A DNA stretch of 64,000 nucleotides. It comes from Marivita lacus. GTDB taxonomy: Bacteria > Pseudomonadota > Alphaproteobacteria > Rhodobacterales > Rhodobacteraceae. Both the position numbers and the translations under genes were made by a program. The stretch is taken from assembly GCF_014637725.1 (NCBI RefSeq), contig NZ_BMFC01000012.1, positions 62,001-126,000 of the forward strand, given 5' to 3'. Below, piece by piece: positions 40,503 through 57,426 of the stretch (position 1 is its first letter; each line of letters starts with the position of its first letter). Below the pieces are notes generated by a model that searched no databases, had not been told where the DNA came from, and saw only the letters and a list, made by a program, of their open reading frames with translations.

Positions 40503-40964
40503 ATGCAACTCAGGATCAACGGAACCATCCACGAGGTCGATGTCGAAGACGACATGCCGCTGCTCTGGGTCCTGCGCGATGAACTTGGCCTGACCGGCAC
40601 CAAATATGGCTGCGGCATTGCGCAATGCGGTGCCTGTACCGTGCATCTGGATGGCGTTGCCGTGCGGTCCTGCCAGACCTGGGCGGTCGACGCGACCGGG
40701 GCTGACATCCGCACCATCGAAGGTCTGGGCACACCTGCCGCGCTGCACGCGGTTCAGGCGGCATGGCTCACCGAACAGGTCGCGCAATGCGGCTACTGCC
40801 AGTCCGGGCAGATCATGCAGGCCGCATCGCTGCTGGCCGAAAACCCCAGCCCGACAGATCAGGACATTGACGACGCCCTGTCCGGCAACCTCTGCCGCTG
40901 CGGCACCTATCCCCGCATCCGCGCCGCAGTGAAACGCGCCGCGACGATGATGCAGGAGGGCTGA
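40503..40964 (+). CDS. 2Fe-2S subunit of a molybdenum hydroxylase (IorA-like)
   Basis: The 153-residue protein is a xanthine-oxidase-family small subunit with a plant-type ferredoxin cluster ([15 protein letters not shown], about 38-52) and a second 2Fe-2S domain ([10 protein letters not shown] and [13 protein letters not shown], about 99-142). It passes electrons from the molybdenum subunit to an acceptor. Length and order match the isoquinoline 1-oxidoreductase/aldehyde oxidoreductase small subunit. It is three bases from the large-subunit gene. Confidence 0.92.
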
Positions 40965-40966
40965 TC

Positions 40967-43369: not shown

Positions 43370-44098
43370 GTGCCAGAGCAAGACCATTTAACTGTGACGG
43401 TGCAGCGCGGCGGGCCTGATGCGCCGTTGCAGCCACAGACATTTCAAGTCCCGGCTTATGACAATCAGACGGTTCTGGACGTGGTGTCGTGGATTCAGCA
43501 GAATTCCGACCCGACCCTGACCTACCGGTTCGCCTGCCGCGTCGGCATGTGCGGAAGCTGTGCGATGATGGTCAACGGCGTGCCGCGCTGGACCTGCCGC
43601 ACCCATGTGGGCAAGGTCTCGAAGGGCGGCGCGATCGAGGTCGGGCCGCTGCGCAACCTGCCGGTGATCAAGGATCTGGCCGCCGACATGGACCCGTTCT
43701 TCGACAAGTGGGTCGCCGCAGAAGGCATGCACCACCCGACCCGCACGCGGCATGACGCCATCGAGGCGATTGATCCGGTGGCGTCCGACCGGCAAGAAGC
43801 CAATGCCGGGATCGAATGCATCAACTGTTCGGTCTGCTATTCCGCCTGTGACACGGTTGCGGGCAATCCCGATTACCTTGGGCCGGCGGCGCTGCAGCGG
43901 GCGTGGACGCTTTTCAACGATGCCAAGGACGCGGACCGCGATACCATTCTGGACGCGGTGTCCGGCAAGGGCGGCTGTCATTCCTGCCATTCGATGGGGT
44001 CCTGCACGACCTATTGCCCGAACGAGCTGGACCCGCTGTCGGCCATTCTTGGTCTCAAGCGCGCGACGGCCAAGCGGTTCTTCGGGGGGCGCAAATGA
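43370..44098 (+). CDS. Iron-sulfur subunit of a succinate dehydrogenase-like complex
   Basis: The 242-residue subunit has a 2Fe-2S domain (Cys56, 61, 64, 76) and a C-terminal ferredoxin domain with Cys150, 153, 156, 160 and Cys203, 206, 212, 216. This is the SdhB/FrdB pattern, with CINCSVCYSAC and the CHSCHSMGSC variant. It passes electrons from the flavoprotein to quinone. The gene opens an operon of ten coupled genes. GTG 43370 follows AAAGGCG. It is a paralogue of the housekeeping SDH by context: the flavoprotein follows two anchor genes and catabolic genes follow. Confidence 0.85.
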   Translation: MPEQDHLTVTVQRGGPDAPLQPQTFQVPAYDNQTVLDVVSWIQQNSDPTLTYRFACRVGMCGSCAMMVNGVPRWTCRTHVGKVSKGGAIEVGPLRNLPVIKDLAADMDPFFDKWVAAEGMHHPTRTRHDAIEAIDPVASDRQEANAGIECINCSVCYSACDTVAGNPDYLGPAALQRAWTLFNDAKDADRDTILDAVSGKGGCHSCHSMGSCTTYCPNELDPLSAILGLKRATAKRFFGGRK

Positions 44099-44424
44099 CC
44101 GAGTTTCACCTCTACATGGCGCAACGCCTGTCGGCCTTGGTCATGGCGCCCTTCGTGATCGTGCATATCGGCGTGATGATCTACGCCATTCAAGGCGGCT
44201 TGTCGGCGGCGGAAATCCTTGGCCGCACCCAGGGGTCGGTGTTCTGGTTCGCCTTCTACGGCATGTTCGTGATCGCGGTGTCGATCCATGCCAGTATTGG
44301 TCTGCGCACGATCCTTGGTGAATGGGCGGGCCTGCGCGGCGGGATGCGGGACGGGGCGTCGGCGCTCATCGGCCTGGGCCTCTTCGCTCTGGGCGCACAG
44401 GCCGTCTGGGCGGTGACGGCATGA
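44095..44424 (+). CDS. SdhC-like membrane anchor
   Basis: The 109-residue protein has three membrane helices. QRLSALVMAPFVIVHIGVMIY and SIHASIGLRTILGEW supply the Arg, Ser and His residues expected for quinone and haem contacts in SDH/FRD anchors. It overlaps the iron-sulfur gene by four bases (ATGA) and couples the complex to quinone. Confidence 0.82.
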   Translation: MTEFHLYMAQRLSALVMAPFVIVHIGVMIYAIQGGLSAAEILGRTQGSVFWFAFYGMFVIAVSIHASIGLRTILGEWAGLRGGMRDGASALIGLGLFALGAQAVWAVTA

Positions 44425-44759
44425 AGGTCGCGCGCGCCCATCCGCTCTGGCTGGCCTACATCCTGCACCGGCTGTCGGGCCTTGGCCTTGCCCTGTTCCT
44501 GCCGCTGCATTTCTGGGTGCTGTCCTATGCGCTCAACGATGCGGCCAAGCTGGATGCATTCCTGACCCTGACCGAGATGCCGCTGGTCAAGGCGGCTGAG
44601 TTCGGTCTGGTGTTCCTGCTGGCGGTGCATCTCTTTGGCGGGTTGCGGCTCTTGGCGCTGGAATGGCTGCCCTGGTCCGCGCCGCAAAAGACATGGGCGG
44701 CGGCGGCGGTGGCCGGGTCGTTCCTGGTCTCTACAACCTTTCTCATGCAGGCGATCTGA
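44421..44759 (+). CDS. SdhD-like membrane anchor
   Basis: The 112-residue protein has three helices with LHRLSGLGLALFLPLHFW and LAVHLFGGLRLLALE, the SDH/FRD cytochrome b-type signature with conserved His. It overlaps the preceding anchor gene by four bases and precedes the flavoprotein by one base. Confidence 0.82.
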   Translation: MKVARAHPLWLAYILHRLSGLGLALFLPLHFWVLSYALNDAAKLDAFLTLTEMPLVKAAEFGLVFLLAVHLFGGLRLLALEWLPWSAPQKTWAAAAVAGSFLVSTTFLMQAI

Positions 44760-44760
44760 T

Positions 44761-46524
44761 ATGTTCACGACAAAAGACATCGACCGGCACGACACCGATA
44801 TCCTCATCCTCGGCACCGGGGGCGCGGGCATGTTTGCCGCGCTCCACGCGATGCAGACCGCGCCCGAGGGCACCAAGGTGACCATCGCGGTCAAGGGCCT
44901 GATCGGCAAATGTGGCTGCACGCGGATGGTGCAGGGCGGTTACAACGTGGCGCTGGGTCATGGCGATTCCGTCGAGCGGCATTTCATGGACACGATCGAA
45001 GGCGGCAAATGGCTGCCCAATCAGGACATGGCGTGGCGGCTCTGCGAACAGTCGGTGGTGCGCATCCGTGAGCTGGAGAACGAGATCGGCTGTTTCTTCG
45101 ACCGCAACGGCGACGGGTCGTTGCACCAGAAGGCCTTTGCCGGGCAGACCGCGGACCGGACCGTTCACAAGGGCGACCTGACCGGCATCGAGATCATCAA
45201 CCGGCTGATGGAGCAGGTTCTGTCCCGCCCGGTGGAAAAGTTGCAGGAACACCGCGCGATCGGCCTGATCCCGACGAAGGACGGATCGGCCTTGGCCGGT
45301 GTACTAATGATCGACATGCGGACGGGCAAGTTCCGATTTGTGCGCGCCAAGACGGTGCTGATGGCAACGGGCGGCGGCCCGACCATGTACAAGTACCACA
45401 CACCCTCGGGCGACAAGACGATGGACGGGCTGGCCATGGCCATGCGCGTCGGCCTGCCGCTGCGCGACATGGAGATGGTGCAGTTCCATCCGACGGGATT
45501 GCTTGCGGGTGATCACACGCGGATGACCGGCACGGTCCTCGAGGAAGGTTTGCGCGGGGCGGGTGGTCAGTTGGTGAACCATTCCGGCCAGCGCTTCATG
45601 TTCGACTACGACGCGAAGGGCGAACGCGCCACCCGCGACGTGGTGAGCCGCGGCATCTATTCCGAGATGCGCAAGAACAACAATCCGGAACAGCAGGGCG
45701 TGTTCATCTCGATGTCCCATCTTGGGCCGGATTTTGTACGCGAAAAGTTCAAGGGCATGGTCAAGCGCTGTTCTGACAGCGGGTTCGATCTGGCCGCGGG
45801 CAAGGTCGAGGTGGTGCCGACGGCGCATTATTTCATGGGCGGTGTCGTGGTCGATGTGGACACGCGCACGGCGATGGAAGGCTTGTATGTCGCCGGGGAG
45901 GACGCGGGCGGCGCACATGGGTCGAACCGTCTGGGCGGCAATGGTGTCGCCAATTCTACCGTCTATGGCGGTATCGCGGGCGACGTGATGGGCACCGACA
46001 TTCGCAGCATGGGCGCGCTGCGCGACCCCGACGAGGCGGTGCTTGAGGCCGAACTGGCGCGCGCTTGCCATCCTTTGACGCGCAAGCCGGCGTTGGTTCT
46101 GCCGCTGCGCAAGCAGTTGCAGGAGGCGATGTGGGACGAGGTCGGCGTGATGCGCACCGAGGCCGGGCTGAAACGCGGGCTGACGCGGATTTCCGAAATC
46201 TCGGACGCGCTGGGCGATGTCGGCGTTGCGGCGGACAACTTGGCCTTCAACCTGACATGGCACGACTGGCTGAACCTGCGGTCGCTCTGTGATATCTCCG
46301 AGGTCATCACCAAGGCGGCACTCGCGCGGGACAATTCGCGCGGCGCGCATTACCGCGAGGATTTCCCCGACGCGGGCGCAATGGAGGACAGTTATTTCAC
46401 CATCGCCCGTCAGGTGGACGGCGCGGTCGAGGTGGGGCGCGAGGACGTGCAGTTCACCATCGTGCGCCCGGGTGAAACCGTGCTTCCCGACGGGGAGCCA
46501 GAGACATTGGTGGCCGCGCAATGA
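44761..46524 (+). CDS. Flavoprotein subunit of a succinate dehydrogenase-like complex
   Basis: The 587-residue FAD protein has GTGGAGMFAALHA (18-30) and the dicarboxylate-active-site segments VQFHPTGLL, VVSRGIY and PTAHYFMGG, plus LYVAGEDAGGAHGSNRLGGN. The histidine that binds FAD covalently in SdhA/FrdA is replaced by Cys53 (CGCTRMVQGG), so flavin is probably non-covalent. Catalytic residues for C4-dicarboxylate oxidation or reduction remain, so it likely dehydrogenates a succinate-like substrate and passes electrons to quinone. It overlaps the fumarase-like gene by four bases. Confidence 0.85.
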   Translation: MFTTKDIDRHDTDILILGTGGAGMFAALHAMQTAPEGTKVTIAVKGLIGKCGCTRMVQGGYNVALGHGDSVERHFMDTIEGGKWLPNQDMAWRLCEQSVVRIRELENEIGCFFDRNGDGSLHQKAFAGQTADRTVHKGDLTGIEIINRLMEQVLSRPVEKLQEHRAIGLIPTKDGSALAGVLMIDMRTGKFRFVRAKTVLMATGGGPTMYKYHTPSGDKTMDGLAMAMRVGLPLRDMEMVQFHPTGLLAGDHTRMTGTVLEEGLRGAGGQLVNHSGQRFMFDYDAKGERATRDVVSRGIYSEMRKNNNPEQQGVFISMSHLGPDFVREKFKGMVKRCSDSGFDLAAGKVEVVPTAHYFMGGVVVDVDTRTAMEGLYVAGEDAGGAHGSNRLGGNGVANSTVYGGIAGDVMGTDIRSMGALRDPDEAVLEAELARACHPLTRKPALVLPLRKQLQEAMWDEVGVMRTEAGLKRGLTRISEISDALGDVGVAADNLAFNLTWHDWLNLRSLCDISEVITKAALARDNSRGAHYREDFPDAGAMEDSYFTIARQVDGAVEVGREDVQFTIVRPGETVLPDGEPETLVAAQ

Positions 46525-47477
46525 TCCCGATAGACCTGATCCAGAAAACTGCTGAGTCCCTGATGGACAAGGCCGCCATCGAGATCCCCGAGGATTACCT
46601 CGACGGTCTGCAAAAGGCCGCCGAGACAGAGGACGGGGATCTGTCGTCCTTCGTGCTCAAGGCGATGCTCGACAATTACGAAGCCGCCAAGGAAGACCGC
46701 CGCGCGATGTGCGGCGACACCGGTGTGCCACGTTGGTTCGTGAAGCTGGGCAATGACGCAACAGTCGAAGGCGGCATGTGTGCGTTGGAAACCGCGCTGC
46801 GGCGGGCCACGGCAATTGCCACCAACGGCGTGCCGCTGCGGCCCAACCGGGTGCATCCGCTGTGGCGGACGGATCACAACAACAACGTAGGGATCGGCGC
46901 GCCCGAGATCGAATACGGGTTCGAGCCGGAGGGCGACTGGATCGACCTGATCACGGTGCACAAGGGTGGGCTCTTCGGCACAGATTACCGGATGCTGTTT
47001 CCCAGCGATGGCGTCCAGGGGATCAAGCGCTTCTACCTCGACAGCCTGATGGCCTTCGGCAAACGCGGTCTGGCCTGCCAGCCGGCGATCATCGGGATCG
47101 GGCTGGGCGGGTCGAAAGACATCTGCATGACGCTGGGCAAGCGCGCGTCGGTGCTGCGCATTGTGGGCAGTCGCAATTCCGATCCCCGCATCGCCGAGAT
47201 GGAGGACGAGTTCAAGGAGCTTGGCAATTCCATCGGCATGGGCGCGATGGGTTTTGTCGGCAAGAACATGGTGATCGATTGCAACATCGAAGTGGGCTAT
47301 TGCCACACCGGCGGGATGCCCATGTCGGTGCACGCCTTCTGCCTGTCCTCGCGCCGGGCCGTGGCGCGGATCTATCCTGACGGGCGGGTCGAGCACCGCA
47401 CCGATCCGGATTGGTTCACGCCGTACCAACGTCGCGAGACCGTGGAGTGGGAACCGATGCAGGAAGCGGCGGAATGA
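46521..47477 (+). CDS. Class I fumarase/tartrate dehydratase alpha subunit
   Basis: The 318-residue protein matches the alpha subunit of two-subunit class I hydro-lyases. Cys64 (MCGDTG), Cys186 (ACQPAIIG) and Cys261 (GYCHTGG) are the likely 4Fe-4S ligands, and GIGLGGSKD is present. It would add or remove water from a dicarboxylate made by the preceding dehydrogenase. The beta subunit is encoded two genes downstream, after a CoA-transferase gene. Confidence 0.88.
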   Translation: MIPIDLIQKTAESLMDKAAIEIPEDYLDGLQKAAETEDGDLSSFVLKAMLDNYEAAKEDRRAMCGDTGVPRWFVKLGNDATVEGGMCALETALRRATAIATNGVPLRPNRVHPLWRTDHNNNVGIGAPEIEYGFEPEGDWIDLITVHKGGLFGTDYRMLFPSDGVQGIKRFYLDSLMAFGKRGLACQPAIIGIGLGGSKDICMTLGKRASVLRIVGSRNSDPRIAEMEDEFKELGNSIGMGAMGFVGKNMVIDCNIEVGYCHTGGMPMSVHAFCLSSRRAVARIYPDGRVEHRTDPDWFTPYQRRETVEWEPMQEAAE

Positions 47478-48622
47478 CACGCGATGGCCCTCTGACGGGT
47501 GTTCGGATCCTTGATCTGACCCATGTTCTGGCCGGGCCGTATGCGACGGGACAACTGGCCCTGATGGGGGCCGATGTGATCCGGGTGGAACGCCCGAACA
47601 ACGACGATTTCGTCCGGCGTCACGGTGGCACGCATGCCATGAAGGACGCCGGGCTGGGTGCATCCTTCCTCAGCCAGAACAGTGGCAAGCGATCCATCGT
47701 GCTCGACCTCAAGGACCCGGAACAACGCGGGCAGCTTCTTGAACTGGCCAAGACCGCCGATGTGATGGTCGAGAATTTCCGCCCCGGCGTGGTTGACCGG
47801 CTGGGTGTCGGATTCGACGACATCCGGAGCATGCGGCCGGACATCATCTATGCCAGCCTGAATGGCTATGGCGCAGAGGGGCCTCTGTCTGACCGCCCCG
47901 CCTATGACCACATCCTTCAGGGGATCAGCGGGCTGATGGCGATGACAGGCGATCCGGGCAGCGGGCCGATGCGGGTGGGCCTGCCGATCGTGGATTACGT
48001 GGCAGGCCAGGCGCTTGTGGCGGCGCTGCTCGGGGCGTTGCTTCAGAAAGCACGTAGACCGGGCGAGGCGCAGAGGCTGTCGGTGTCGATGCTCGATGCC
48101 ATGACCACGTTCATGGGGGCCTATGCCATCCATCACGAAACAACCGGTCAATTGCGCGGGCTGGAAGGCAATCGCGCTTTTGCCGATACACCCTTTTCAG
48201 GCCGGTTCGACACCGCAGAGGGATCATTGGTGATCACCGCAAACACACCCGCGCAGGCGAAGCGCCTTTGCGCGGCGCTTGGTCAGGCTGATCTGGCAGA
48301 CGACACGGACGACACCCGGATCGCCACAACGCTTCGGACGGTCTTTCTCACCGATGATGCGCAGGCGTGGGAGGACAAGCTGTCCGCCGCCAATGTGCCC
48401 GCTGCCAAGATACGCACGCTGGCCGAGGTTCTGGACCATCCCCAGATGACCAACAGCCGAGCGTGGTTGCCATTGGAGGTGCCGCAGCTCGGCATCACCG
48501 TCCGTGCGCCAAGCCTGCCGTTCAGTGCGCCGTGGAGCCCGGACCGACTTGAACCGGTGCCTGCGTTCGGCCAACACACGGCCGAGATCGTCGCCAATTC
48601 GCTTGAAAAGGTCATGCCATGA
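47474..48622 (+). CDS. Family III CoA-transferase (CaiB/BaiF)
   Basis: The 382-residue protein has the family III signatures LTGVRILDLTHVLAGPYATGQLALMGADVIRVE (in parts) and GLPIVDYVAGQ with the catalytic Asp at about 169. Such enzymes move CoA between carboxylates such as succinate, formate, oxalate and malate. The gene is inserted between the two hydro-lyase subunit genes with four-base overlaps at both ends, which implies the CoA step acts on the same substrate path. Confidence 0.9.
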   Translation: MTRDGPLTGVRILDLTHVLAGPYATGQLALMGADVIRVERPNNDDFVRRHGGTHAMKDAGLGASFLSQNSGKRSIVLDLKDPEQRGQLLELAKTADVMVENFRPGVVDRLGVGFDDIRSMRPDIIYASLNGYGAEGPLSDRPAYDHILQGISGLMAMTGDPGSGPMRVGLPIVDYVAGQALVAALLGALLQKARRPGEAQRLSVSMLDAMTTFMGAYAIHHETTGQLRGLEGNRAFADTPFSGRFDTAEGSLVITANTPAQAKRLCAALGQADLADDTDDTRIATTLRTVFLTDDAQAWEDKLSAANVPAAKIRTLAEVLDHPQMTNSRAWLPLEVPQLGITVRAPSLPFSAPWSPDRLEPVPAFGQHTAEIVANSLEKVMP

Positions 48623-49284
48623 AACCGCGCGAAATCCGATTGTCGACAACCCCGACACCCGAGGCGATTGCCGAGTTGCGGCTGGGCGACATCGTCTATC
48701 TTGACGGGTTGATGTATACGGCCCGCGAAGGGGTCTATATGCGCGCGCTCGAAGAGCAGGCGAATATCCCGATGGAGCTGCCGTCGCAGAGTGCGGCCAA
48801 CTTCCACTGCTCGCCCGCCGCGCGGATCAACCCCGATGGCAGTTTCGACATGGGGGCAGTGACCGCCACGGCGTCGTTCCGCTTTGCAAAATGGCTGCCG
48901 GAATGGATGGAAAAGACCGGCGCCAAGCTGATCATCGGCAAGGGGGGCATGACCTCCAAGGATTACAAATCCTACTTCGTGCCCAATGGTGCGGTCTACC
49001 TGTCCACCGTCGGCTACGGAACCGGCGCGCTTCTGGGGCGCGGAGTCGAGAATGTCGAAGCGGTGCATTGGAACGAGGAACTGGGTCTTGCGCAGGCGAT
49101 GTGGGTCATTCGTTGCCGCAAGATGGGGCCGTTCATCGTGGCCTCGGACCTGAACGGTGATTGCCTGTTCGAACGGGAGAATGCCAAGATCGCAAAGAAC
49201 ATTGCGCGGGTGTATGAAGGCACGAAACCTGCCGTGCTCAAGCGCTACGGCGAAAGTGACGACCGCTCTGACGAGGTGATATGA
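48619..49284 (+). CDS. Class I fumarase/tartrate dehydratase beta subunit
   Basis: The 221-residue protein matches the beta subunit of two-subunit class I hydro-lyases (swivelling domain; GDIVYLDGLMYTAREG, LIIGKGGMTSKD and the conserved GAVYLSTVGYGTGALLG segment). It is the partner of the alpha subunit at 46521. The two-gene separation is unusual, because the pair is normally adjacent. It overlaps neighbours by four bases. Confidence 0.88.
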   Translation: MKPREIRLSTTPTPEAIAELRLGDIVYLDGLMYTAREGVYMRALEEQANIPMELPSQSAANFHCSPAARINPDGSFDMGAVTATASFRFAKWLPEWMEKTGAKLIIGKGGMTSKDYKSYFVPNGAVYLSTVGYGTGALLGRGVENVEAVHWNEELGLAQAMWVIRCRKMGPFIVASDLNGDCLFERENAKIAKNIARVYEGTKPAVLKRYGESDDRSDEVI

Positions 49285-50387
49285 CCCAAAACCCATTTGC
49301 GCCCGGCGCGAAACGTCCGTCCGTCACGGAAGGCGTGTTCTCGCGCGAGGAAGTGGCTCTGGCCAACCGCAATTCCGGCGCGCTGCTGGAGACGCTGGGG
49401 TTGGAGATCACCCCCACGGGCACGCATTACCTGCTGAACCATTTCGATGTCCCGGTGCTGGACGAGGCCGCGCATGTGCTGTCCTTCGAGGGCGCGTTCG
49501 ATGCGCCGTTCCGCCTGACGATGGACGAGATCCGCGCGCTGCCTGAAATGACACGTCCGGTGACTTTGGAATGCGCGGGCAATGGGCGAGCTGGGGTCAG
49601 CCCGCGCTGCTTCTCGATGCCGTGGATGTACGAGGCAGTGGGCACGTCGAAATGGGCGGGTACACCGCTTGCGCCGCTGCTGGAACGCGCGCAGCCACGC
49701 TCGGGCGTGCAGGATTTCGCATTCCTTGGAGCGGATTTCGGCTTTGACAAAGGTCAGCCGCATTACTTTGGACGTAGCCTCACGCCGGATCAGATCGCGG
49801 ATCTGGACGTGATGCTGGTCTGGGGCATGAACGGTCAGCCGCTCTTGCCGCAGCACGGGGCGCCTTTGCGGATCATCGTGCCCGGTTGGTACGGCATGGC
49901 GTCGGTCAAGTGGTTGACGACGATCACGGCGCTGACCGAGCGGTATCAGGGCTTTCAACAGGTTCAGACCTACCGCCTGCGAAAAAACGAGGACGATCCC
50001 GGCACGCCGGTCACCACGATCCGGGTGAAATCGCTGATGAAGCCTCCCGGTGTGCCCGATTGGGTGACGCGGCAGCGCTGGTTGCAGGCCGGGCGCGTGA
50101 CGCTCGAGGGTCGGGCGTGGTCCGGCGGCGGGGTGCCGATCACCAAGGTCGAGGTGCGCTTGGGCGACACATGGCAGGACGCCGAACTGACTGGCCGCCC
50201 CGACACCTATGCCTGGACCGGCTGGCGCATCGACTGGGATGCAACACCCGGAGTTTTCGATCTGGCCTGCCGCGCGACCGATGCAAACGGCAACACGCAA
50301 CCACTGGAGGCGCCCTTCGACATGGCAGGATTTGCGAACAATTCGGTGCACCGCGTGCGGGTCCATGTGGCCGAGGCCGCGACATGA
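49281..50387 (+). CDS. Sulfite oxidase-family molybdoenzyme
   Basis: The 368-residue protein has a sulfite oxidase molybdopterin domain with the molybdenum-ligand Cys98 in TLECAGNGRAG, followed by the WAGTPLAPLL and PLRIIVPGWYGMASVKWL segments, and a C-terminal Mo-co dimerisation domain (about 250-360). No Sec or Tat signal is visible, so it may be cytoplasmic. Members oxidise sulfite to sulfate, which suggests the operon generates sulfite. Homologues of unknown substrate exist in this superfamily. Confidence 0.85.
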   Translation: MTQNPFAPGAKRPSVTEGVFSREEVALANRNSGALLETLGLEITPTGTHYLLNHFDVPVLDEAAHVLSFEGAFDAPFRLTMDEIRALPEMTRPVTLECAGNGRAGVSPRCFSMPWMYEAVGTSKWAGTPLAPLLERAQPRSGVQDFAFLGADFGFDKGQPHYFGRSLTPDQIADLDVMLVWGMNGQPLLPQHGAPLRIIVPGWYGMASVKWLTTITALTERYQGFQQVQTYRLRKNEDDPGTPVTTIRVKSLMKPPGVPDWVTRQRWLQAGRVTLEGRAWSGGGVPITKVEVRLGDTWQDAELTGRPDTYAWTGWRIDWDATPGVFDLACRATDANGNTQPLEAPFDMAGFANNSVHRVRVHVAEAAT

Positions 50388-51949
50388 CGCGCGGCGCCGA
50401 TGTGGTGATGCAGACCCTTGCGGCGCATGGGGTCCGGGACATCTTCGCGCTCTCGGGCAACCAGATCATGCCGCTCTTCGATGCGAGCCTCGATGCGGGG
50501 ATCCGGTTGTACCATACACGCCACGAGGCGGCGACGGTCTACATGGCCGAAGGCTATGCGCAGCTGTCGCGTGGGCTTGGCGTGGCGTTGGTGACCGCTG
50601 GGGCTGGGCTTGGCAATGCGTTGGGGCCGCTGCTGACGGCGCGGGCGTCGGACAGTCCGGTTCTGCTGCTGAGTGGCGACAGCCCGGTGGCGCGCGACGG
50701 GCAGGGCGCGTTCCAGGAAATGGATCAGGTCGCGCTCACGCAGTCTTTGACCAAGTGGTCTGTGCGGGTCACACGAGCTGCCGATCTGGCCGAGGTGATC
50801 GACAAGGCGGTTCATGTGGCGATGCAGGGCCGACCCGGCCCCGTGCATGTGTCCCTGCCTGCCGATATCCTGATGGCCGAGGCCGCCCCCGCAACGGCGA
50901 CGAAAGCGGTGCAGCCTGATCCGGTCAATGTCGCTGATCTGCGCGATTGGATCGACGCGGCGCAGCGTCCGATTGTGGTGCTGGGTCCAGCCCTCAACAC
51001 CACCCGGCAGCCGGGACTGGCAGCTCGGCTGGAGCAGGCGACAGGTGCTCCTGTCGTGGTGATGGAAAGCCCGCGCGGGTTGAACGATCCGTCGCTGGGC
51101 GCTGTGGCGCAGGTTTTTGGCGAGGCGGACCGCGTGGTGTTGCTGGGCAAGCCGCTGGACTTTACCCTCCAATTCGGCGCGGCTGCCCCCAAGGCGGGAT
51201 GGGCCGTGGTCCATGCCGATCCGGTCGAGCTGTCCCGTGCGCGCATCAACTGCGCCGAACGCCTGACCCGCAGCGTCGAGGCTGATCCGAATGACGTGGC
51301 AAGGGGATTGTCACTGGGTACTCCGCCGCCCCGTGTGGGCGACTGGGCAGACAGGGTGCGCGCTGCTTGCGCGCGCCGCAGCATGACCAGTGACGAAACC
51401 GCGTTGACCTCCAACACTTTATGCTCTGCCGTTCATGTAGTGCTGCAAGAGGCGGACACGCCGGTTCTGGTCTGTGATGGCGGTGAGTTCGGGCAATGGG
51501 CGCAGGCGAATGTGTCTGCCCCGCGCCGGATCATCAACGGCGTGTCGGGCGCCATTGGCGGCGGGTTGTGCTACGCGATGGCAGCCCGTGCGGCCGATCC
51601 GACAGCCACCGTGGTTGCGTTGATGGGCGATGGCACGGTCGGCTTTCACCTGGGCGAGTTCGAAACTGCCGTGCGGGAAAATCTGCCCTTCGTGGCGGTG
51701 ATCGGCAATGACCTGCGTTGGAACGCGGAACACCAGATCCAGATCCGCGAGTTCGGAGAGGACCGGGTGCATGGCTGCGGCCTGAGTGGCGCGCGTTATG
51801 ACGAAGTGGTGACCGCGCTGGGCGGTTTTGGGGTCTACGTGACCGAGCTTGACGCGGTGCCCGATGCCCTGCGGCGTGCCATCGCATCGGGCAAACCGGC
51901 TTGCATCAACGTGCGGATCGACGGCACACCGGCTCCGGTGGTGAAATGA
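50384..51949 (+). CDS. Thiamine-diphosphate-dependent enzyme
   Basis: The 521-residue protein has the three domains of acetolactate synthase/oxalyl-CoA decarboxylase-like enzymes. Catalytic Glu48 lies in RHEAA, and the ThDP/Mg motif GDGTVGFHLGEFETAV...GND lies at about 415-443. It could be a decarboxylase, 2-hydroxyacyl-CoA lyase or sulfonate-cleaving enzyme (Xsc-like). It is shorter than Xsc and not close enough to any family for me to assign the reaction. It overlaps the sulfite oxidase gene by four bases and ends the operon. Confidence 0.8.
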   Translation: MTRGADVVMQTLAAHGVRDIFALSGNQIMPLFDASLDAGIRLYHTRHEAATVYMAEGYAQLSRGLGVALVTAGAGLGNALGPLLTARASDSPVLLLSGDSPVARDGQGAFQEMDQVALTQSLTKWSVRVTRAADLAEVIDKAVHVAMQGRPGPVHVSLPADILMAEAAPATATKAVQPDPVNVADLRDWIDAAQRPIVVLGPALNTTRQPGLAARLEQATGAPVVVMESPRGLNDPSLGAVAQVFGEADRVVLLGKPLDFTLQFGAAAPKAGWAVVHADPVELSRARINCAERLTRSVEADPNDVARGLSLGTPPPRVGDWADRVRAACARRSMTSDETALTSNTLCSAVHVVLQEADTPVLVCDGGEFGQWAQANVSAPRRIINGVSGAIGGGLCYAMAARAADPTATVVALMGDGTVGFHLGEFETAVRENLPFVAVIGNDLRWNAEHQIQIREFGEDRVHGCGLSGARYDEVVTALGGFGVYVTELDAVPDALRRAIASGKPACINVRIDGTPAPVVK

Positions 51950-51953
51950 CGCG

Positions 51954-52571
51954 CTAAATCCCGTGCGCCGCCATCACGGCCAATGTCGCCGGGCGGTGCA
52001 GCATCGCGTCGTGATGGGCCTGCAGCTTGGGGTAATCCGACAGGTCCACACCGGCCTTGGCCATCCAGCGCGGCATCAGGAACAGGTAGGCGTCGCAGAA
52101 CGTGTAGCGATCGCCCATTGCCCACGGCCCCTTGATATGATGGGTTTCGACGATCCGCGCGCAGTCTGCCAGATTGCTGGCGACCTTGGCCTTCATCGCC
52201 TCATGCGCGTCGGCGCTGTCGGCCCAGCGTGCACCGCGTTGCAGATGGGCGAAAGCGACGTGCACGGTGGCACAGAGATAGGCGCAAAGCGCATCGGCCT
52301 CGGCACGTTCGAACGGTGTGTCGGGCAGCATCTGCGCCTGCGGGTGGATCGCGGCGATATAGGTCAGGATGGCGGGGTTTTCCGTGATCACGCCGTTCGG
52401 TGTCATCAACGCGGGCACGCGGGCCTTGGGATTGATGTCGAGATAGGCCGCTTCGGTATTGGCTCCCTTGGCGATCGGCACCTCGTGGACGGCGTATTCT
52501 GCGCCGACCTCTTCAAGAAGGACATGCGGCGCAAGGGCGGATGATCCCTTGGCATAATAGAGTGTCAGCAC
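51954..52571 (-). CDS. Glutathione S-transferase-family protein
   Basis: The 205-residue protein has a thioredoxin-like N-terminal domain (MLTLYYAKGSSALAPHVLL; Ser as the likely GSH contact; PALMTPNGVITENPAILTYI in parts) and an all-helical C-terminal domain. It resembles GstA/beta-type GSTs. It converges on the ThDP gene and follows the TauE/SafE and LysR genes on the minus strand, so it probably takes part in the same catabolism, perhaps for reactive intermediates. Confidence 0.88.
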   Translation of the reverse strand: MLTLYYAKGSSALAPHVLLEEVGAEYAVHEVPIAKGANTEAAYLDINPKARVPALMTPNGVITENPAILTYIAAIHPQAQMLPDTPFERAEADALCAYLCATVHVAFAHLQRGARWADSADAHEAMKAKVASNLADCARIVETHHIKGPWAMGDRYTFCDAYLFLMPRWMAKAGVDLSDYPKLQAHHDAMLHRPATLAVMAAHGI

Positions 52572-52598: not shown

Positions 52599-53342
52599 TC
52601 ATAAAAGCGCGGGGATCAGGATTCCAAGCCCCAGCAGCAGCGACAGCCCGATCAGCAGCCGTCTGAAGATATTGTCCGAGATGCGTTGAAAGACGGCAAT
52701 ACCGATCTGTGCCGCGATCAAAGATGTGGGCAGCGCGATCAGGAAGGCGGTGATCGTCGGCGCGGTATAGGCGCCGCGCCACCAGAGCATCACGGTGGTG
52801 GTGAGCAGCACGCTCACGTTGAAGGGTTGCAACACGGCGCGGGTTTCGGCCTTGGGCCAGGGTCGCATCGAACACCAGATCACCGGCAGCGCGCCCGACA
52901 ATGACGCCATCCCGCCCAGCACGCCGCCGGTCAGACCGATCAGCGAATCAAGCACCGGCGTGCGGCGTTCGAACTTGGGCAGGTTGGCGCGAAAGCTGAA
53001 GAACCCGCCATAGACCAGCAGCAGCACGCCGATCACCAGCTTGAGCGTGTCCGCGTCGATGAAGCTGAGCAGAGAAATGCCCACTGGAACACCAAGCAGG
53101 CCGGGGATGATGAACCGCATCAGCCGCGCCACGTTCTGCGTCATCGCAACCCTGACCACCCAGAGCCCTTGCACCCCGGTGACCACAGACATCAGCGCGA
53201 CAATCGCCACCGCGCCCACGGGATCGAGCGCGACCAGAAAGAATCCCAGCGCAAAAAGCGCGGTTCCGGTCCCGGCCAGCCCGTTGATGAACCCCCCGGC
53301 AAAGGCGCCAAGGGTGATGAAGACAATCGCCTCGATACTCAT
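52599..53342 (-). CDS. TauE/SafE-family exporter
   Basis: The 247-residue membrane protein has about seven to eight helices with the TauE/SafE features GAFAGGFINGLAGTGTALFALG at its start and GLTGGVLGGMASLSGALPVIW in the second half. Members export sulfite or sulfoacetate-type anions. Its position beside a sulfite oxidase-like gene supports sulfite handling. ATG 53342 overlaps the LysR stop codon (ATGA), so it is co-transcribed with the regulator. Confidence 0.87.
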   Translation of the reverse strand: MSIEAIVFITLGAFAGGFINGLAGTGTALFALGFFLVALDPVGAVAIVALMSVVTGVQGLWVVRVAMTQNVARLMRFIIPGLLGVPVGISLLSFIDADTLKLVIGVLLLVYGGFFSFRANLPKFERRTPVLDSLIGLTGGVLGGMASLSGALPVIWCSMRPWPKAETRAVLQPFNVSVLLTTTVMLWWRGAYTAPTITAFLIALPTSLIAAQIGIAVFQRISDNIFRRLLIGLSLLLGLGILIPALL

Positions 53343-54256
53343 GAGACTTGTGTCGCTTCGGCATTGGGCGGCTGTTCCGGTGGATGATTCTGAACCGCGC
53401 GCAGCATCGCGGCGTGGATTTCCTCGATCACCCGCAGCTTGGGATGTTCCTTGCGATAGGCCAGCCCGAGGATGCGCGACGGGGGCGTCGGCCCAAGCGC
53501 CACGTGGTTGAGCGGAATGGCAAAGGGACGGGTCACGCAAGGGCGCGGCACGATCGAGACACCCAGATTGGCATGGACCATGCTTGAAATCGCCTCAAGG
53601 CTTTCAAGCTCCATCGCCTCGCTGACGCGGATGCCGTTTTCCTGCAACCAGGTCTCGATCACCGTGCCGACCACCGCATCGCGGTTGAACCGGATGAAGG
53701 GCTGGGTTTCGAGAATGCGGACAGGATCGGTTTCGGTGACCTCGGACCCGGTGATAAGATGCAGCGGTTCCTCCGCGATCTGCAGAAAGACAAGGCCCAG
53801 CGGCAACAGCACGGGCTTGGTCACTATGGCGACATCGTAATGGCCGCGGTCCAGGCCCGACAGAAGTGCGGCGGTCAGGGCAGGGGTGATCCGCACCCGC
53901 AATTCGGGAAACCGTGCGCGCAGGATCGACATGGACAGCGGTGCCAGCCCGATCAGCGTGGTCGGCACTGCACCCAGAACCACATCTCCTGTCAGTCCGT
54001 CATCGCCCAGTACCGAAGAAACAAGCGTGTCGTAATCCTGCACCAGCGTGCGGGCACGGGCGACCACGGCCCGGCCCAGTGGCGTGAGTTCGGGGGTCCG
54101 GTGGCTGCGGTCGAAGAGCGGAATGCCAAGGTCGGTTTCCAGCGTGCGCATCTGCTGGCTGACCGCGGCATGGGTGATGAACACCGCATCCGCAGCCGCG
54201 CTGAAGGTCTTGTGGTCGGCCACGGCGACCAGTGTTTTGAGCAACCTGATGGACAT
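53339..54256 (-). CDS. LysR-family transcriptional regulator
   Basis: The 305-residue protein has an N-terminal winged helix-turn-helix (about 1-65, AAADAVFITHAAVSQQMRTLE) and a LysR substrate-binding domain (about 90-295). It is divergent from the second tctC and most likely activates it. The TTGCTTACAGA sequence is found in both its own divergent region and in front of the SDH-like operon, suggesting a shared regulon with a dicarboxylate-like inducer. Confidence 0.9.
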   Translation of the reverse strand: MSIRLLKTLVAVADHKTFSAAADAVFITHAAVSQQMRTLETDLGIPLFDRSHRTPELTPLGRAVVARARTLVQDYDTLVSSVLGDDGLTGDVVLGAVPTTLIGLAPLSMSILRARFPELRVRITPALTAALLSGLDRGHYDVAIVTKPVLLPLGLVFLQIAEEPLHLITGSEVTETDPVRILETQPFIRFNRDAVVGTVIETWLQENGIRVSEAMELESLEAISSMVHANLGVSIVPRPCVTRPFAIPLNHVALGPTPPSRILGLAYRKEHPKLRVIEEIHAAMLRAVQNHPPEQPPNAEATQVS

Positions 54257-54382: not shown

Positions 54383-55360
54383 ATGAAACTACGGACTCTA
54401 GGGTCGGCATTGGCGCTCGGGGTGGGCCTCATTGCTGGAACGGCGATGGCGGAATACCCTGAACGCCCGATCAACATGATCATTCCGTACGGTGCCGGTG
54501 GCGCCACGGACATTTCCGCACGCACCATTGCCGAGGCACTGGGCACCGCTGCGGGCAAGCCGCTGATCATGGCCAACGTCACCGGGGCAGGCGGCGCGAC
54601 CGGATCGGTTGCCGTGCAGAACGCCAAGCCCGATGGTTACACGATGCTGTTCGCGCGTGTCGGATCGCATTCGGTCAACCCGGCGATGAAGGCAACCTTG
54701 CCCTACACGCTGGATGATTTCCGCTTTGTCACGGTCTACGAGATCAACCCCGTGGCCTGCGCGGTGCGCCCGGACAGCGGCATCGAATCGATGGATGACC
54801 TTGTCGCCAAGGTGGCCGAAGGGGGCGTCAGCTACAGCTCCTCCGGTGTCGGATCGCTGCTGCACCTTGCCGGTGCGATGGTGCTCAAGGAATTCGGCGT
54901 CGAGGACCCTCTGAACGCTGCCACGCATATTCCCCAGAAGGGGGGCGGTGAAGCAGCTACAGCGGTTCTGAACGGTACGGTGACGTTTATCTGCACCAAC
55001 ACATCCGCTTTGGCGAATTTCGTGGCGAACAATCAGCTCAAGCCGATTTTGGTCACCACCGAAGAGCCGGTTGTCGGCTTCGATGCACCGACGGCAAACG
55101 ATCTGGGCAAGCCGCGCCTGAATGCGCTGGTCGGCTGGACAGGCATCGCCGGTCCCGCAGGTCTGCCGGATGATGTCAGCGCCAAGTGGGGCGACTGGAT
55201 CGTCGAGGCCGCACAGGACGCCAAGTTCTCGGATACGATGGCATCCATGGGTTCGGTCATCGATGTGATGAGTCCCGAAGAGGCCATCGACTTCATCAAC
55301 GGTCAGTACGCGGTGTTCAAGGCACTGGTCGACGAGTTGGGGATGCGGATCGAGGGCTAA
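54383..55360 (+). CDS. tctC: TTT transporter solute-binding protein (second copy)
   Basis: The 325-residue TctC/Bug protein has a signal peptide (about 1-23, AGTAMA) and EYPERPINMIIPYGAGGATD at the start of the mature protein. A strong GGGAGGAGA site precedes ATG 54383. It should bind a carboxylate in the periplasm for the downstream TctBA. Divergent LysR control and the shared regulatory motif point to the substrate of the SDH/fumarase-like operon. Confidence 0.92.
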   Translation: MKLRTLGSALALGVGLIAGTAMAEYPERPINMIIPYGAGGATDISARTIAEALGTAAGKPLIMANVTGAGGATGSVAVQNAKPDGYTMLFARVGSHSVNPAMKATLPYTLDDFRFVTVYEINPVACAVRPDSGIESMDDLVAKVAEGGVSYSSSGVGSLLHLAGAMVLKEFGVEDPLNAATHIPQKGGGEAATAVLNGTVTFICTNTSALANFVANNQLKPILVTTEEPVVGFDAPTANDLGKPRLNALVGWTGIAGPAGLPDDVSAKWGDWIVEAAQDAKFSDTMASMGSVIDVMSPEEAIDFINGQYAVFKALVDELGMRIEG

Positions 55361-55391
55361 GACCCTGATCCGATGACCCAGACCTAGCTTA

Positions 55392-55415
55392 CGCCGGGGC
55401 CCTTTGGCCTCGGCG
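55392..55415 (+). terminator. Hairpin between tctC and tctB
   Basis: CGCCGGGGCC (55392-55401) pairs with GGCCTCGGCG (55406-55415), nine of ten bases, with a four-base loop and TTTCC after it. Such a structure after a binding-protein gene often reduces read-through, so that the binding protein is made in excess. Confidence 0.6.
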
Positions 55416-55441
55416 TTTCCACCTGCGGAGCCCCCTTGCCC

Positions 55442-55939
55442 ATGTCCCAGAAATCGCTGCACCTGCGCCTGGGGATCGTTGCATCCCTGTTCGCGCTGTT
55501 TCTCATGTTCTACGCCATTCCAAACTACGTCTTTGCCCCGTCCAACGTCCGCAACATCATCCTGTCGCCAAAGTTCTGGCCCTATGTTCTGGCTGGGTTC
55601 ACCGCGTTCATCGGGCTGGCCTTGCTGTTCAACGCGGTCACCTCGGCGACGGACACCCCGTTCGAGGATGAGGAAACCGGTCATCCCGAAGGTTCGGCAC
55701 CTTGGATGCGGCTTGGCGCGTTGGGTGCGATCATGCTGCTGGTCATGTTCGGCCTGCCACTTCTGGGCATGGTCTGGACCGCGATGCTGGCCTTTGCGGC
55801 CTGCGCCTTCCTGTTTCGCACGCGGCACCCTGTGGCCGCCGTTGTCTGCGCGGTGGTTGTGCCGCTTCTGCTTTACGCGTTCTTTGCGCATGTCGCCGGT
55901 GTGGCGATCCCGCAGGGTGAATTCGTGAGGCTGCCATGA
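55442..55939 (+). CDS. tctB: TTT transporter small membrane subunit (second copy)
   Basis: The 165-residue protein has four predicted helices (LRLGIVASLFALFLMFYAI, FWPYVLAGFTAFIGLALLF, LGAIMLLVMFGLPLLGMVW, VVCAVVVPLLLYAFFAHVAG) and fits TctB. Two starts are possible, TTG 55436 and ATG 55442; the GGAG at 55427-55430 fits TTG better by spacing, but ATG is the stronger codon. It overlaps tctA by four bases. Confidence 0.82.
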   Translation: MSQKSLHLRLGIVASLFALFLMFYAIPNYVFAPSNVRNIILSPKFWPYVLAGFTAFIGLALLFNAVTSATDTPFEDEETGHPEGSAPWMRLGALGAIMLLVMFGLPLLGMVWTAMLAFAACAFLFRTRHPVAAVVCAVVVPLLLYAFFAHVAGVAIPQGEFVRLP

Positions 55940-57426
55940 GCCTGATGGACTCTCTCGCCGCCGGCTTTGCGCTGGTCGGAAATATCGAAGCCTTCCTGAT
56001 GCTGTTCATTGGTCTGGTCGTCGGGGTCATCGCCGGGGCGATCCCCGGATTGTCCGCGACGATGGCGGTGGCGTTGACCTTGCCCTTCACCTTTGCAATG
56101 ACCCCGATCAACGCGATCCTGCTTTTGCTGGGGGTCTACAAGGGCGGCATCTTTGGCGGCTCGATCCCCGCCATCCTGATCAAGACGCCGGGCACACCGG
56201 CTTCGTCTGCCACGATCCTTGACGGGCACCCGATGGCCGAGCGCGGTGAGGCGGGGCGCGCGCTGGGCATGGCGCTTTATGCGTCCTGTACTGCCGACGC
56301 GGTGTCGAATCTCGCGCTGATCCTCTTTGCAGGGTGGCTCGCGTCCTTCGCGCTCAACTTCGGCCCGCCCGAGTTCTTTGCGCTGATCCTGTTCTCGCTG
56401 ACCATCATCGCGGGCGTGTCGGGCGAAAGCCTGTTGCGCGGCGCGCTGTCGGCCTTGGCAGGGCTGCTGCTGGCGACCATCGGGCTTGATCTGGTCTATG
56501 GCACCAACCGCTTCACTCTGGGCAATCCGAACATGATGGGCGGGCTGAACTTCATCGCGGTGCTGATCGGTCTCTTCGCCATCCCCGAGATCATCTCGAT
56601 GGCATGGAACCCTGTGGCGCATCTGGGCAAGACCCGGGCGCTGGGAAAGTCGCGGTGCAGTTGGGCGGACTACAAGAACAGCTTCAAGAGCATCATCCGG
56701 GGCAGCATGATCGGCGTGTTCCTCGGCTCCATCCCCGGCATCGGGGCAGCGCCTGCGGCCTTCCTGAGCTATTCCGAGGCGCGGCGTACGTCCAAGAACC
56801 AGGCCAATTTCGGCAAGGGAGAGATCGAGGGGGTCGCGGCCTCCGAATCCGGCAACAACGGCGTGGCAGGCGCAACCCTGATCCCGCTGCTTGCGCTCGG
56901 TGTGCCGGGTGACGTGATCACCGCGATCATCATCGGTGCCTTCATGGTGCACGGGCTGCAACCCGGTCCGATGATGTTCATTCTCAACGTCGACATCATC
57001 TACGGGCTCTTCATCGGCCTGATCGTCAGTTCGGTCTTCCTGCTGATCGTGGGGTCGGTGGCGATCAGGGGGTTCCGGTTCGTTGCGGATGTGCCCAAGC
57101 GCATCCTGATGCCCGGCGTTCTGATCCTGTGCATCTACGGCGTCTTTGCGGTGAACAACAACATCTTCGACGTGGGTGTGATGTTCGTCATGGGCTGGGT
57201 CGGCTACATCATGATGCGCAACCGCATCCCTGCCGCACCGTTCCTGATCGCGTTCATCCTTGGCCCGCTGCTCGAGGACAATTTCCGCCAGGCGATGCTG
57301 ATGTCGGGCAGCGATCCCATCATCCTGTTCCGGGGGCCGATCACGTGGTTCTTCTGGTTCCTGACATGTCTGACCGTGTTCGCCATTACCCGCAGCACGC
57401 TGCGCAAACGCGTGCCGCTCAGTTAA
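55936..57426 (+). CDS. tctA: TTT transporter large membrane subunit (second copy)
   Basis: The 496-residue TctA permease shows the two repeated family segments, GAIPGLSATMAVALTLPFTF and SIPGIGAAPAAFLSYSEARR, and KGGIFGGSIPAILIKTPGTPAS. It imports a carboxylate in symport with a cation. Its stop lies eight bases inside the end of the convergent exonuclease gene. Confidence 0.95.
   Translation: MSLMDSLAAGFALVGNIEAFLMLFIGLVVGVIAGAIPGLSATMAVALTLPFTFAMTPINAILLLLGVYKGGIFGGSIPAILIKTPGTPASSATILDGHPMAERGEAGRALGMALYASCTADAVSNLALILFAGWLASFALNFGPPEFFALILFSLTIIAGVSGESLLRGALSALAGLLLATIGLDLVYGTNRFTLGNPNMMGGLNFIAVLIGLFAIPEIISMAWNPVAHLGKTRALGKSRCSWADYKNSFKSIIRGSMIGVFLGSIPGIGAAPAAFLSYSEARRTSKNQANFGKGEIEGVAASESGNNGVAGATLIPLLALGVPGDVITAIIIGAFMVHGLQPGPMMFILNVDIIYGLFIGLIVSSVFLLIVGSVAIRGFRFVADVPKRILMPGVLILCIYGVFAVNNNIFDVGVMFVMGWVGYIMMRNRIPAAPFLIAFILGPLLEDNFRQAMLMSGSDPIILFRGPITWFFWFLTCLTVFAITRSTLRKRVPLS

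Follow-up and report, generated by a model that had tools for sequence, protein, structure and literature searches.

A conserved succinate dehydrogenase- and fumarase-like gene core in Marivita lacus and its relatives, possibly for degradation of a three-carbon sulfonate

This work concerns a nine-gene operon on the + strand (43370-51949) of a 64,000-nucleotide stretch of the Marivita lacus genome (contig NZ_BMFC01000012.1), hereafter the window, together with its relatives in other genomes. Six of the nine genes, encoding a complex that resembles succinate dehydrogenase (SDH), in the order B-C-D-A, and a two-subunit fumarase-like enzyme (FumA, alpha; FumB, beta), form a core that is near universal in the relatives, and by their active-site motifs these enzymes are distinct from those of the citric acid cycle. 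Based on the genes that surround the core copies, we tentatively propose that the core could be a catabolic module for a three-carbon (C3) sulfonate, which would convert 3-sulfopropionate through 3-sulfoacrylate into malonate semialdehyde and sulfite. The parts of this proposal differ in strength: the substrate class is very probably a sulfonate, the substrate itself, judged from sequence and gene context, is probably 3-sulfopropionate, and addition of water to the sulfonate-bearing carbon with direct release of sulfite is a possibility that we put forward with reserve.

Results

Conservation of the six-gene core

A search of plasmid proteins with the alpha subunit gave 12 records at 66-92% identity, the other 77 lying below 60% and, among the matches listed, those beneath the upper group at about 34% or less, while a one-genome-per-species scan with the alpha gene gave at least 529 relatives (E <= 1e-3), of which we retained the best 80 (86-97% identity). 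The window, eight plasmid loci and these 80 genome loci form a set of 89, in which genes were called and then clustered; three more plasmid loci and 13 whole-genome loci extend it to 105, in which partners were counted within eight genes of the alpha gene. Individual loci and genomes are referred to by L and G numbers.

The clusters over the 89 loci comprised FumA in 87, SdhA in 88, FumB in 88, SdhC in 80, SdhB in 75 and SdhD in 73, short genes and contig ends being responsible for the missed ones; since the loci were found via the FumA gene, its count is not independent. The core occurs across alpha-, beta- and gammaproteobacteria, and in the window's genome the alpha gene has no further match at E <= 0.001. 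An earlier note on this DNA had described an operon of the same gene families joined by four-base overlaps and supposed that the products serve one path. All nine genes were confirmed, with a four-base overlap at seven of the eight junctions and a one-base gap between SdhD and SdhA, and the recurrence of the six core genes together across the 89 loci supports the single path. The comparison of clusters across genomes that the note had suggested thus upheld the SDH-like and fumarase-like part, and it separated off the coenzyme A (CoA) transferase, the sulfite-oxidase-like protein (SorL) and the thiamine diphosphate (ThDP) enzyme, which are accessories and lie outside the core because they are rare among the 105 loci (10, 19 and 27, respectively).

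Core enzymes compared with succinate dehydrogenase and fumarase

The SDH-like complex shares with complex II (succinate dehydrogenase and fumarate reductase, FRD) the four subunits and the flavin adenine dinucleotide and iron-sulfur domains. In the flavoprotein alignment, which we interpreted by assuming that the roles of FrdA T244, H232, E245, H355 and R390 carry over, the general-acid Arg and the His/Arg pair presumed to bind the other carboxylate are retained. Unlike complex II, however, the window type has Glu for the succinate-site Thr (Glu261 in the window), giving Glu-Glu-Gly where the genome's own SDH has the substrate motif Thr-Glu-Gly, a longer loop ahead of this position that bears Arg or Lys (Arg254 in the window), and Phe-Ala-Gly for Phe-Gly-Gly, each in 96/96 flavoproteins aligned, one extra row, which repeated the genome's own SDH, being excluded from the 96. 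The window flavoprotein is only 33% identical to the separate SDH flavoprotein of its genome and scores below the SDH/FRD cut-offs, the best being TfrA (478 of 718), followed by TIGR01812 (413 of 567) and the SDH forward model (331 of 727). A signature pattern drawn from these positions matched one protein per locus in 137 of 140 pooled loci (misses L030, L042 and L084), and among 20 later loci 15 fitted it and five fitted with Ile or Ser at one position.

The hydratase likewise has the alpha and beta domains of class I two-subunit fumarase and L-tartrate dehydratase: both Fe-S hydro-lyase domains (PF05681 and PF05683) are present and TIGR00722 is over its cut-off. Applying to its motifs the Gln, Thr, Lys and Arg roles of class I fumarase, which we take to hold here, the Cys of CxDTG and the Thr, Arg and Lys positions are conserved. 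Unlike class I fumarase, the window type scores under the fumarase equivalog cut-offs and has changed motifs, with C(G/A)DTG for CQDTG in 111/111 alpha subunits and, in 105/105 beta subunits, TAREGVY or a close variant for TARDEAH and TASFRF for TTSARM.

Sulfur-related and three-carbon neighbours

Within eight genes of the alpha gene, the 105 loci carry genes for LysR (78), TauE (68), TctA (31), nitroreductase (30), ThDP enzyme (27), sulfite-oxidase family (20, of which 19 are window-type SorL), Zn-alcohol dehydrogenase (17), YeiH (11), CoA-transferase (10), methylmalonate-semialdehyde dehydrogenase (MMSDH, family TIGR01722; 10), enolase superfamily (8), NIPSNAP (7), SSADH (6), desulfinase (5) and homocysteine-methyltransferase-like proteins (4). 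TauE, YeiH, a sulfite-oxidase-family protein or desulfinase is encoded at 79 of the loci, and at 73 when SorL is not counted, which supports the logic of oxidation, hydration and loss of sulfite already outlined in the earlier note. TauE is about four times denser near the core (71 of 964 genes within six genes vs 13 of 747 beyond), and the window TauE scores 102 bits against a PF01925 cut-off of 32.6. SorA and SoxC genes over the curated cut-offs lie 3-4 kb from the core in Methylobacterium nodulans, and a SorT gene over its curated cut-off lies about 7 kb from it, more than eight called genes away, in Pseudomonas MPC6; these SorA and SorT genes near other core copies are better evidence for sulfite than SorL.

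Several other partners point to C3 compounds. MMSDH is encoded within eight genes at 8/9 Cupriavidus-type loci (two Cupriavidus plasmids and seven further genomes with near-identical cores), at the 1/1 Pseudomonas locus and at 1/2 Methylobacterium-type loci. Its gene stands 1.4-4.4 kb from the core in the eight Cupriavidus-type loci, the ninth contig ending first, and 2.8 kb from it in L121, and in Pseudomonas MPC6 it shares one base with the beta gene. The genes for 3-sulfinopropanoyl-CoA desulfinase, over the cut-off in 4/4 tested, are located 1.1 kb (L087), 2.1 kb (L017) and 9-10 kb (Sulfitobacter THAF37 and C. necator N-1) from the core. In L035, L036 and L050, genes for a semialdehyde dehydrogenase (in L036 scoring 628 against the SSADH cut-off of 646) and a Zn-alcohol dehydrogenase run into sdhB; a route from 3-hydroxypropanesulfonate through 3-sulfopropanal to 3-sulfopropionate would need such enzymes. 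These C3-sulfonate partner genes are present at part of the relatives only. No C4-sulfonate-specific neighbour was recognised among the labelled genes, many neighbours not having been scanned, and we know of no gene family specific to C4 sulfonates.

The gene after the beta gene belongs to the Amidohydro_2 family in L005, L007, L091, L119, L121, L124-L128 and L131 (the Pfam run was made on the L091 copy); these loci are of the Cupriavidus and Methylobacterium types, lineages mostly with MMSDH.

Relatives with SuyAB-type genes and the flavoprotein tree

In Paracoccus versutus an island spanning about 20 kb contains, besides the core, a ComC-like gene (204 of 500 bits), PGDH-family and HisD-family genes, a UxaA pair and, after it, a YeiH-family exporter. 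We take such a combination of UxaA pair and exporter to be SuyAB-SuyZ, HpsN to belong to the HisD family and SlcC to the PGDH family, and on this basis read the island genes as SlcC, HpsN and SuyABZ. The P. ferrooxidans island resembles it as far as seen, P. seriniphilus has the core and a SuyB-like gene on separate plasmids, and in the Cupriavidus-type genome G857 the island around the core includes SuyAB-, SlcC- and ComC-like genes. In the window genome the best SuyB-like match is a 32% identical paralogue, which we do not count as SuyB.

A further group of relatives, reached with the flavoprotein as query, combines SDH-like genes with a hydratase that has CQDTG. In Methylobacterium radiotolerans and M. 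oryzae, which are near copies, these genes are accompanied by ThDP enzyme, TauE, SlcC-like and Ldh-family genes and a SuyAB-like pair, the SuyB-like gene being 77% identical to the P. versutus copy. Rhodococcus jostii RHA1 has a SuyB-like gene (58%) about 20 kb off, and among six more alphaproteobacterial loci of this type L168 and L174 have SuyAB-, SlcC- and ComC-like genes and four, some on short contigs, do not. In two haloarchaea the SDH-like pair is accompanied by genes for TauE and an argininosuccinate-lyase-superfamily protein and by a UxaA pair, which at about 33% identity to the SuyB query is not proven SuyAB; one of the two has a ComC-like gene (340 of 500 bits) as well. Their lyase-superfamily proteins (L163 7281-8783; L164 7371-8873) score over the ArgH cut-off and may be sulfoacrylate hydratases rather than ArgH.

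Within the fetched stretches (about 10 kb on each side), a SuyB-like gene occurs in 4/9 CQDTG-type vs 0/148 window-type loci (135 + 13), the latter including duplicates and related genomes and being in many cases shortened by contig ends; the Fisher p is about 5e-6 for the pooled loci and 0.002 after a rough collapse by guessed genus (3/7 vs 0/40). In a flavoprotein tree of 61 rows (every seventh of the best-80 loci, the other pooled loci minus two sets, and the genome's own SDH), 48 window-type rows group as a single clade (support 98/97) that also takes in L182, a locus without a recognised alpha gene, and excludes the haloarchaeal and CQDTG rows; according to a warning of the tree tool, the outgroup branch is very long and that of RHA1 long. 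Most simply read, an older module would have formed sulfolactate and relied on SuyAB, before the hydratase was remodelled and came to release sulfite itself.

Accessory genes and surroundings of the operon

The features of the window are collected in Table 1. The earlier note had drawn sulfite release from the sulfite-oxidase-like protein and the TauE exporter; sulfite remains a likely product, in view of the true SorA and SorT near other core copies, and the argument from SorL did not hold. SorL reaches 170 of 600 bits for SorA and 143 of 570 for SorT, and no signal peptide was evident in it on inspection by eye. Where SorA has R55 and R362, whose roles we assume to apply to the SorL pocket, all 19/19 members have Leu and Asn, Cys98 and Arg103 being kept. 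SorL is therefore weak evidence for sulfite and was rejected as proof of it.

The CoA activation and ThDP cleavage that the earlier note had placed among the pathway steps were also given up as obligatory, given the counts of 10 and 27 in 105 loci. The CoA-transferase gene adjoins the alpha gene in 9/105 loci, and its window product gives sub-cut-off scores for mesaconate and glutarate transferases. We also considered whether the window CoA-transferase is connected with the 3-sulfinopropionate genes that C. necator N-1 carries, and dropped the idea, as its identity to the CoA-transferases adjoining the desulfinase in L087 and L091 is only 32% and these belong to a different clade. The slot between the two hydratase subunit genes holds a homocysteine/betaine methyltransferase-like gene in L015, L020, L031, L079, L098, L099 and L139 and a short-chain dehydrogenase/reductase gene in other loci.

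For 2-hydroxyacyl-CoA lyases the ThDP protein gives scores that stay under the cut-off, and its best structure matches are benzaldehyde lyases. Among the genomes counted as the family (34 bearing the core and 261 others), a ThDP gene stands near the core in 5/5 core-bearing genomes without Xsc vs 10/29 with it (p=0.011, one of several comparisons). The five are L123, L129, L130, L138 and L156. The ThDP enzyme could desulfonate or decarboxylate a downstream intermediate, for which its pattern in genomes without Xsc is suggestive only.

Table 1. Operon genes and neighbouring features, with positions in the window
Feature	Position	Strand	Basis or remark
SDH-like iron-sulfur subunit (SdhB-like)	43370..44098	+	Pfam PF13085/PF13534, NCBIfam TIGR00384; GTG start uncertain
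SDH-like membrane subunit, anchor type (SdhC-like)	44095..44424	+	PF01127; TIGR02968 under cut-off
SDH-like membrane cytochrome b subunit (SdhD-like)	44421..44759	+	PF01127; TIGR02970 over cut-off
SDH-like flavoprotein (SdhA-like), proposed 3-sulfopropionate:quinone dehydrogenase	44761..46524	+	PF00890/PF02910
Fumarase-like alpha subunit (FumA), proposed sulfoacrylate hydratase	46521..47477	+	PF05681; distinct clade, C-G/A-D-T-G
Family III CoA-transferase, accessory, between the two hydratase subunit genes	47474..48622	+	PF02515
Fumarase-like beta subunit (FumB)	48619..49284	+	PF05683; motifs TAREGVY, TASFRF, KGGM
Sulfite-oxidase-like molybdoprotein SorL, accessory	49281..50387	+	PF00174/PF03404
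ThDP enzyme, accessory; acetolactate synthase / 2-hydroxyacyl-CoA lyase / benzaldehyde lyase relatives	50384..51949	+	
Glutathione S-transferase-like protein	51954..52571	-	Family name from annotated relative in L009
TauE/SafE exporter, proposed for sulfite (or sulfonate)	52599..53342 (best call)	-	PF01925 on 52599-53540
LysR-type regulator	53339..54256	-	Annotated LysR in relatives; cluster in 67/89 loci
TctC-TctB-TctA tripartite tricarboxylate transporter, proposed substrate uptake	54383..57426	+	Annotated in relatives L002, L009

Among the flanking genes, the glutathione S-transferase-like gene recurs as a neighbour in 12/89 loci and the TctA cluster in 35/89. The genes immediately before the operon (40503-43213) encode a 2Fe-2S and a large subunit that by eye resemble those of a molybdenum hydroxylase, and the pair holds the same place in 7/89 loci, mostly Marivita. 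The two closest named loci are both Marivita, with 82-86% DNA identity in long blocks. In 31/89 loci (e.g. L009 9257-10084), many of them Rhodobacterales, sdhB has a nitroreductase-family gene in its vicinity, usually on the other strand.

Discussion

3-Sulfopropionate is succinate with a sulfonate in place of one carboxylate. We propose that, first, the membrane-bound SDH-like complex would oxidise 3-sulfopropionate to 3-sulfoacrylate and pass the electrons to quinone. Second, the iron-sulfur hydratase would put water on the sulfonate-bearing carbon of 3-sulfoacrylate, and the product, the bisulfite adduct of malonate semialdehyde, would split into malonate semialdehyde and sulfite. Third, MMSDH would convert malonate semialdehyde to acetyl-CoA, and the sulfite could be exported by TauE or YeiH, or oxidised by SorA/SorT-type enzymes. 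With still more caution, the window-type hydratase may be seen as a new desulfonating enzyme that arose once, replacing a sulfolactate-forming hydratase plus SuyAB, and that runs a widespread quinone-coupled route of 3-sulfopropionate degradation.

The same substrate and first step are shared by the best surviving alternative, which we nonetheless consider rather unlikely, namely that water goes to C2 and gives 3-sulfolactate, which would be desulfonated elsewhere by SuyAB, by Xsc (after oxidation and decarboxylation) or by CuyA. Aconitase-type enzymes bind a hydroxyl and a carboxylate on one carbon to their iron, and by analogy such chelation favours water on C2 and 3-sulfolactate as the product. 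The SDH-like relatives in Methylobacterium, G1002 and G1077 adjoin SuyAB- and SlcC-like genes, with ComC-like genes in G1002 and G1077, and the two haloarchaeal relatives adjoin UxaA pairs, one with the ComC-like gene below cut-off. Among core-bearing genomes, a SuyB-like gene is found in 10/13 outside the family (at >=63% identity) and in 10/34 within it, vs 44/261 of the other family genomes (p=0.10; two of the 44 only 37-40% identical). Xsc (E <= 1e-150) is enriched in the core-bearing family genomes, the window genome included (29/34 vs 160/261, p=0.007). In addition, a thesis cited in PMC11489063 is described there as reporting that Roseovarius nubinhibens degrades 3-sulfopropionate via sulfoacrylate and sulfolactate. 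R. nubinhibens is not among the best 80 of the at least 529 relatives.

Further observations also weigh against direct sulfite release or limit the contrasts drawn on for it. The fetched stretch of G857 begins 109 bases beyond the end of a SuyB-like gene, which is separated from sdhB by 6.8 kb and from the alpha gene by 10 kb, and in P. versutus and P. ferrooxidans such a gene is about 20 kb from the core. We infer the identity of SuyB from the layout of the UxaA pair and its neighbours, and no library named the gene. MMSDH is near the core in 0/93 loci other than the three types named above, 91 of these being classed as Rhodobacterales and the rest, it was not labelled in 50 further stretches, and it is common genome-wide, as in 33/34 core-bearing family genomes (the window genome, where it is away from the core, and 32/33 others). 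No sulfur partner lies within eight genes in 26/105 loci (32 without SorL), some of them on short contigs, and a Glu close to a sulfonate is not obviously favourable.

On the other hand, the sulfolactate route would have to proceed without a SuyB-like gene in 24/34 core-bearing family genomes, the window genome included, and without both a SuyB-like gene and Xsc in 3/34, CuyA not having been searched for. It likewise has to meet the absence of SuyB-like genes from all 148 fetched window-type stretches, and it leaves unexplained the MMSDH genes near the core in three lineages.

The substrate suggested in the earlier note, sulfosuccinate, would be oxidised to sulfofumarate and hydrated on the sulfonate carbon to yield oxaloacetate and sulfite. 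It relies on the same enzyme logic and sulfur partners and could account for the frequent tripartite tricarboxylate transporters; a few loci with little beyond the core, TauE, LysR and transporter (e.g. L021, L030) fit a product that enters the citric acid cycle directly, and the enolase-superfamily gene of 8/105 loci could serve a chiral substrate. However, oxaloacetate requires no semialdehyde dehydrogenase, yet MMSDH recurs, and the desulfinase and the SuyAB-, SlcC- and ComC-like proteins are C3 enzymes; the alcohol and semialdehyde dehydrogenase genes point to C3 compounds as well. Since the neighbours indicate C3 compounds, sulfosuccinate is lowered to an improbable rival.

A sulfur-free C4-C5 dicarboxylate such as methylsuccinate, or a succinate mimic such as 3-nitropropionate, with the TauE-family protein exporting something else, has a similarly low probability. 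The breadth of the TauE/SafE family and the nitroreductase-family genes of 30/105 loci would suit it, and methylsuccinate and mesaconate were considered because of the scores of the family III CoA-transferase; against it stand the SorA, SorT, SoxC and desulfinase neighbours above curated cut-offs and the SuyAB-like genes at relatives. Last, a variant peculiar to the window, in which the CoA-transferase activates 3-sulfolactate and the ThDP enzyme cleaves it to formyl-CoA and sulfoacetaldehyde for desulfonation by Xsc, draws on the lyase-like scores of the ThDP protein and the Xsc of the window genome but is very improbable, as ThDP genes are commoner than CoA-transferase genes, their association with genomes lacking Xsc is the opposite of what the route needs, and the best structure matches are benzaldehyde lyases.

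The proposed 3-sulfopropionate module touches on known systems without coinciding with them. The degradation of 3-sulfolactate and 2,3-dihydroxypropane-1-sulfonate (DHPS) by SuyAB, SlcC, ComC and HpsN offers a similar C3 sulfonate context, and such genes flank some relatives and a few window-type loci. Unlike it, the core brings a dehydrogenase and a hydratase of its own, and nothing SuyB-like above 32% identity is present in the window genome. According to PMC6370202, 3-sulfinopropionate is degraded by the Act CoA-transferase and the Acd desulfinase; a desulfinase is near the core in some loci, but not around the window, and the known route yields propionyl-CoA. XcbC, of the argininosuccinate lyase superfamily, makes sulfoacrylate, as described in PMC8727900; the haloarchaeal SDH-like relatives adjoin a protein of that superfamily, in which sulfoacrylate is handled, whereas the window hydratase is of the class I iron-sulfur type and XcbC is biosynthetic.

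The open-licence literature, searched by title and abstract, gave no paper that attributes sulfonate degradation to SDH-like or fumarase-like genes. As stated in PMC11489063, bacterial degradation of 3-sulfopropionate was unreported before 2024 except for the thesis on R. nubinhibens, Bilophila wadsworthia can use 3-sulfopropionate as an electron acceptor, and 3-sulfopropionate is a product of sulfoquinovose and DHPS fermentation and of homotaurine. If the proposal is true, the core would supply genes for 3-sulfopropionate in Rhodobacterales, Cupriavidus-type bacteria, methylobacteria and perhaps haloarchaea, and so close a gap in the cycling of organic sulfur, and many genes annotated as succinate dehydrogenase or fumarate hydratase would need reassigning. 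The hydratase would then represent a new cleavage of the C-S bond, a desulfonation mechanism beside those of SuyAB, Xsc and CuyA, and the breakdown of a sulfonate would be coupled to respiration via quinone.

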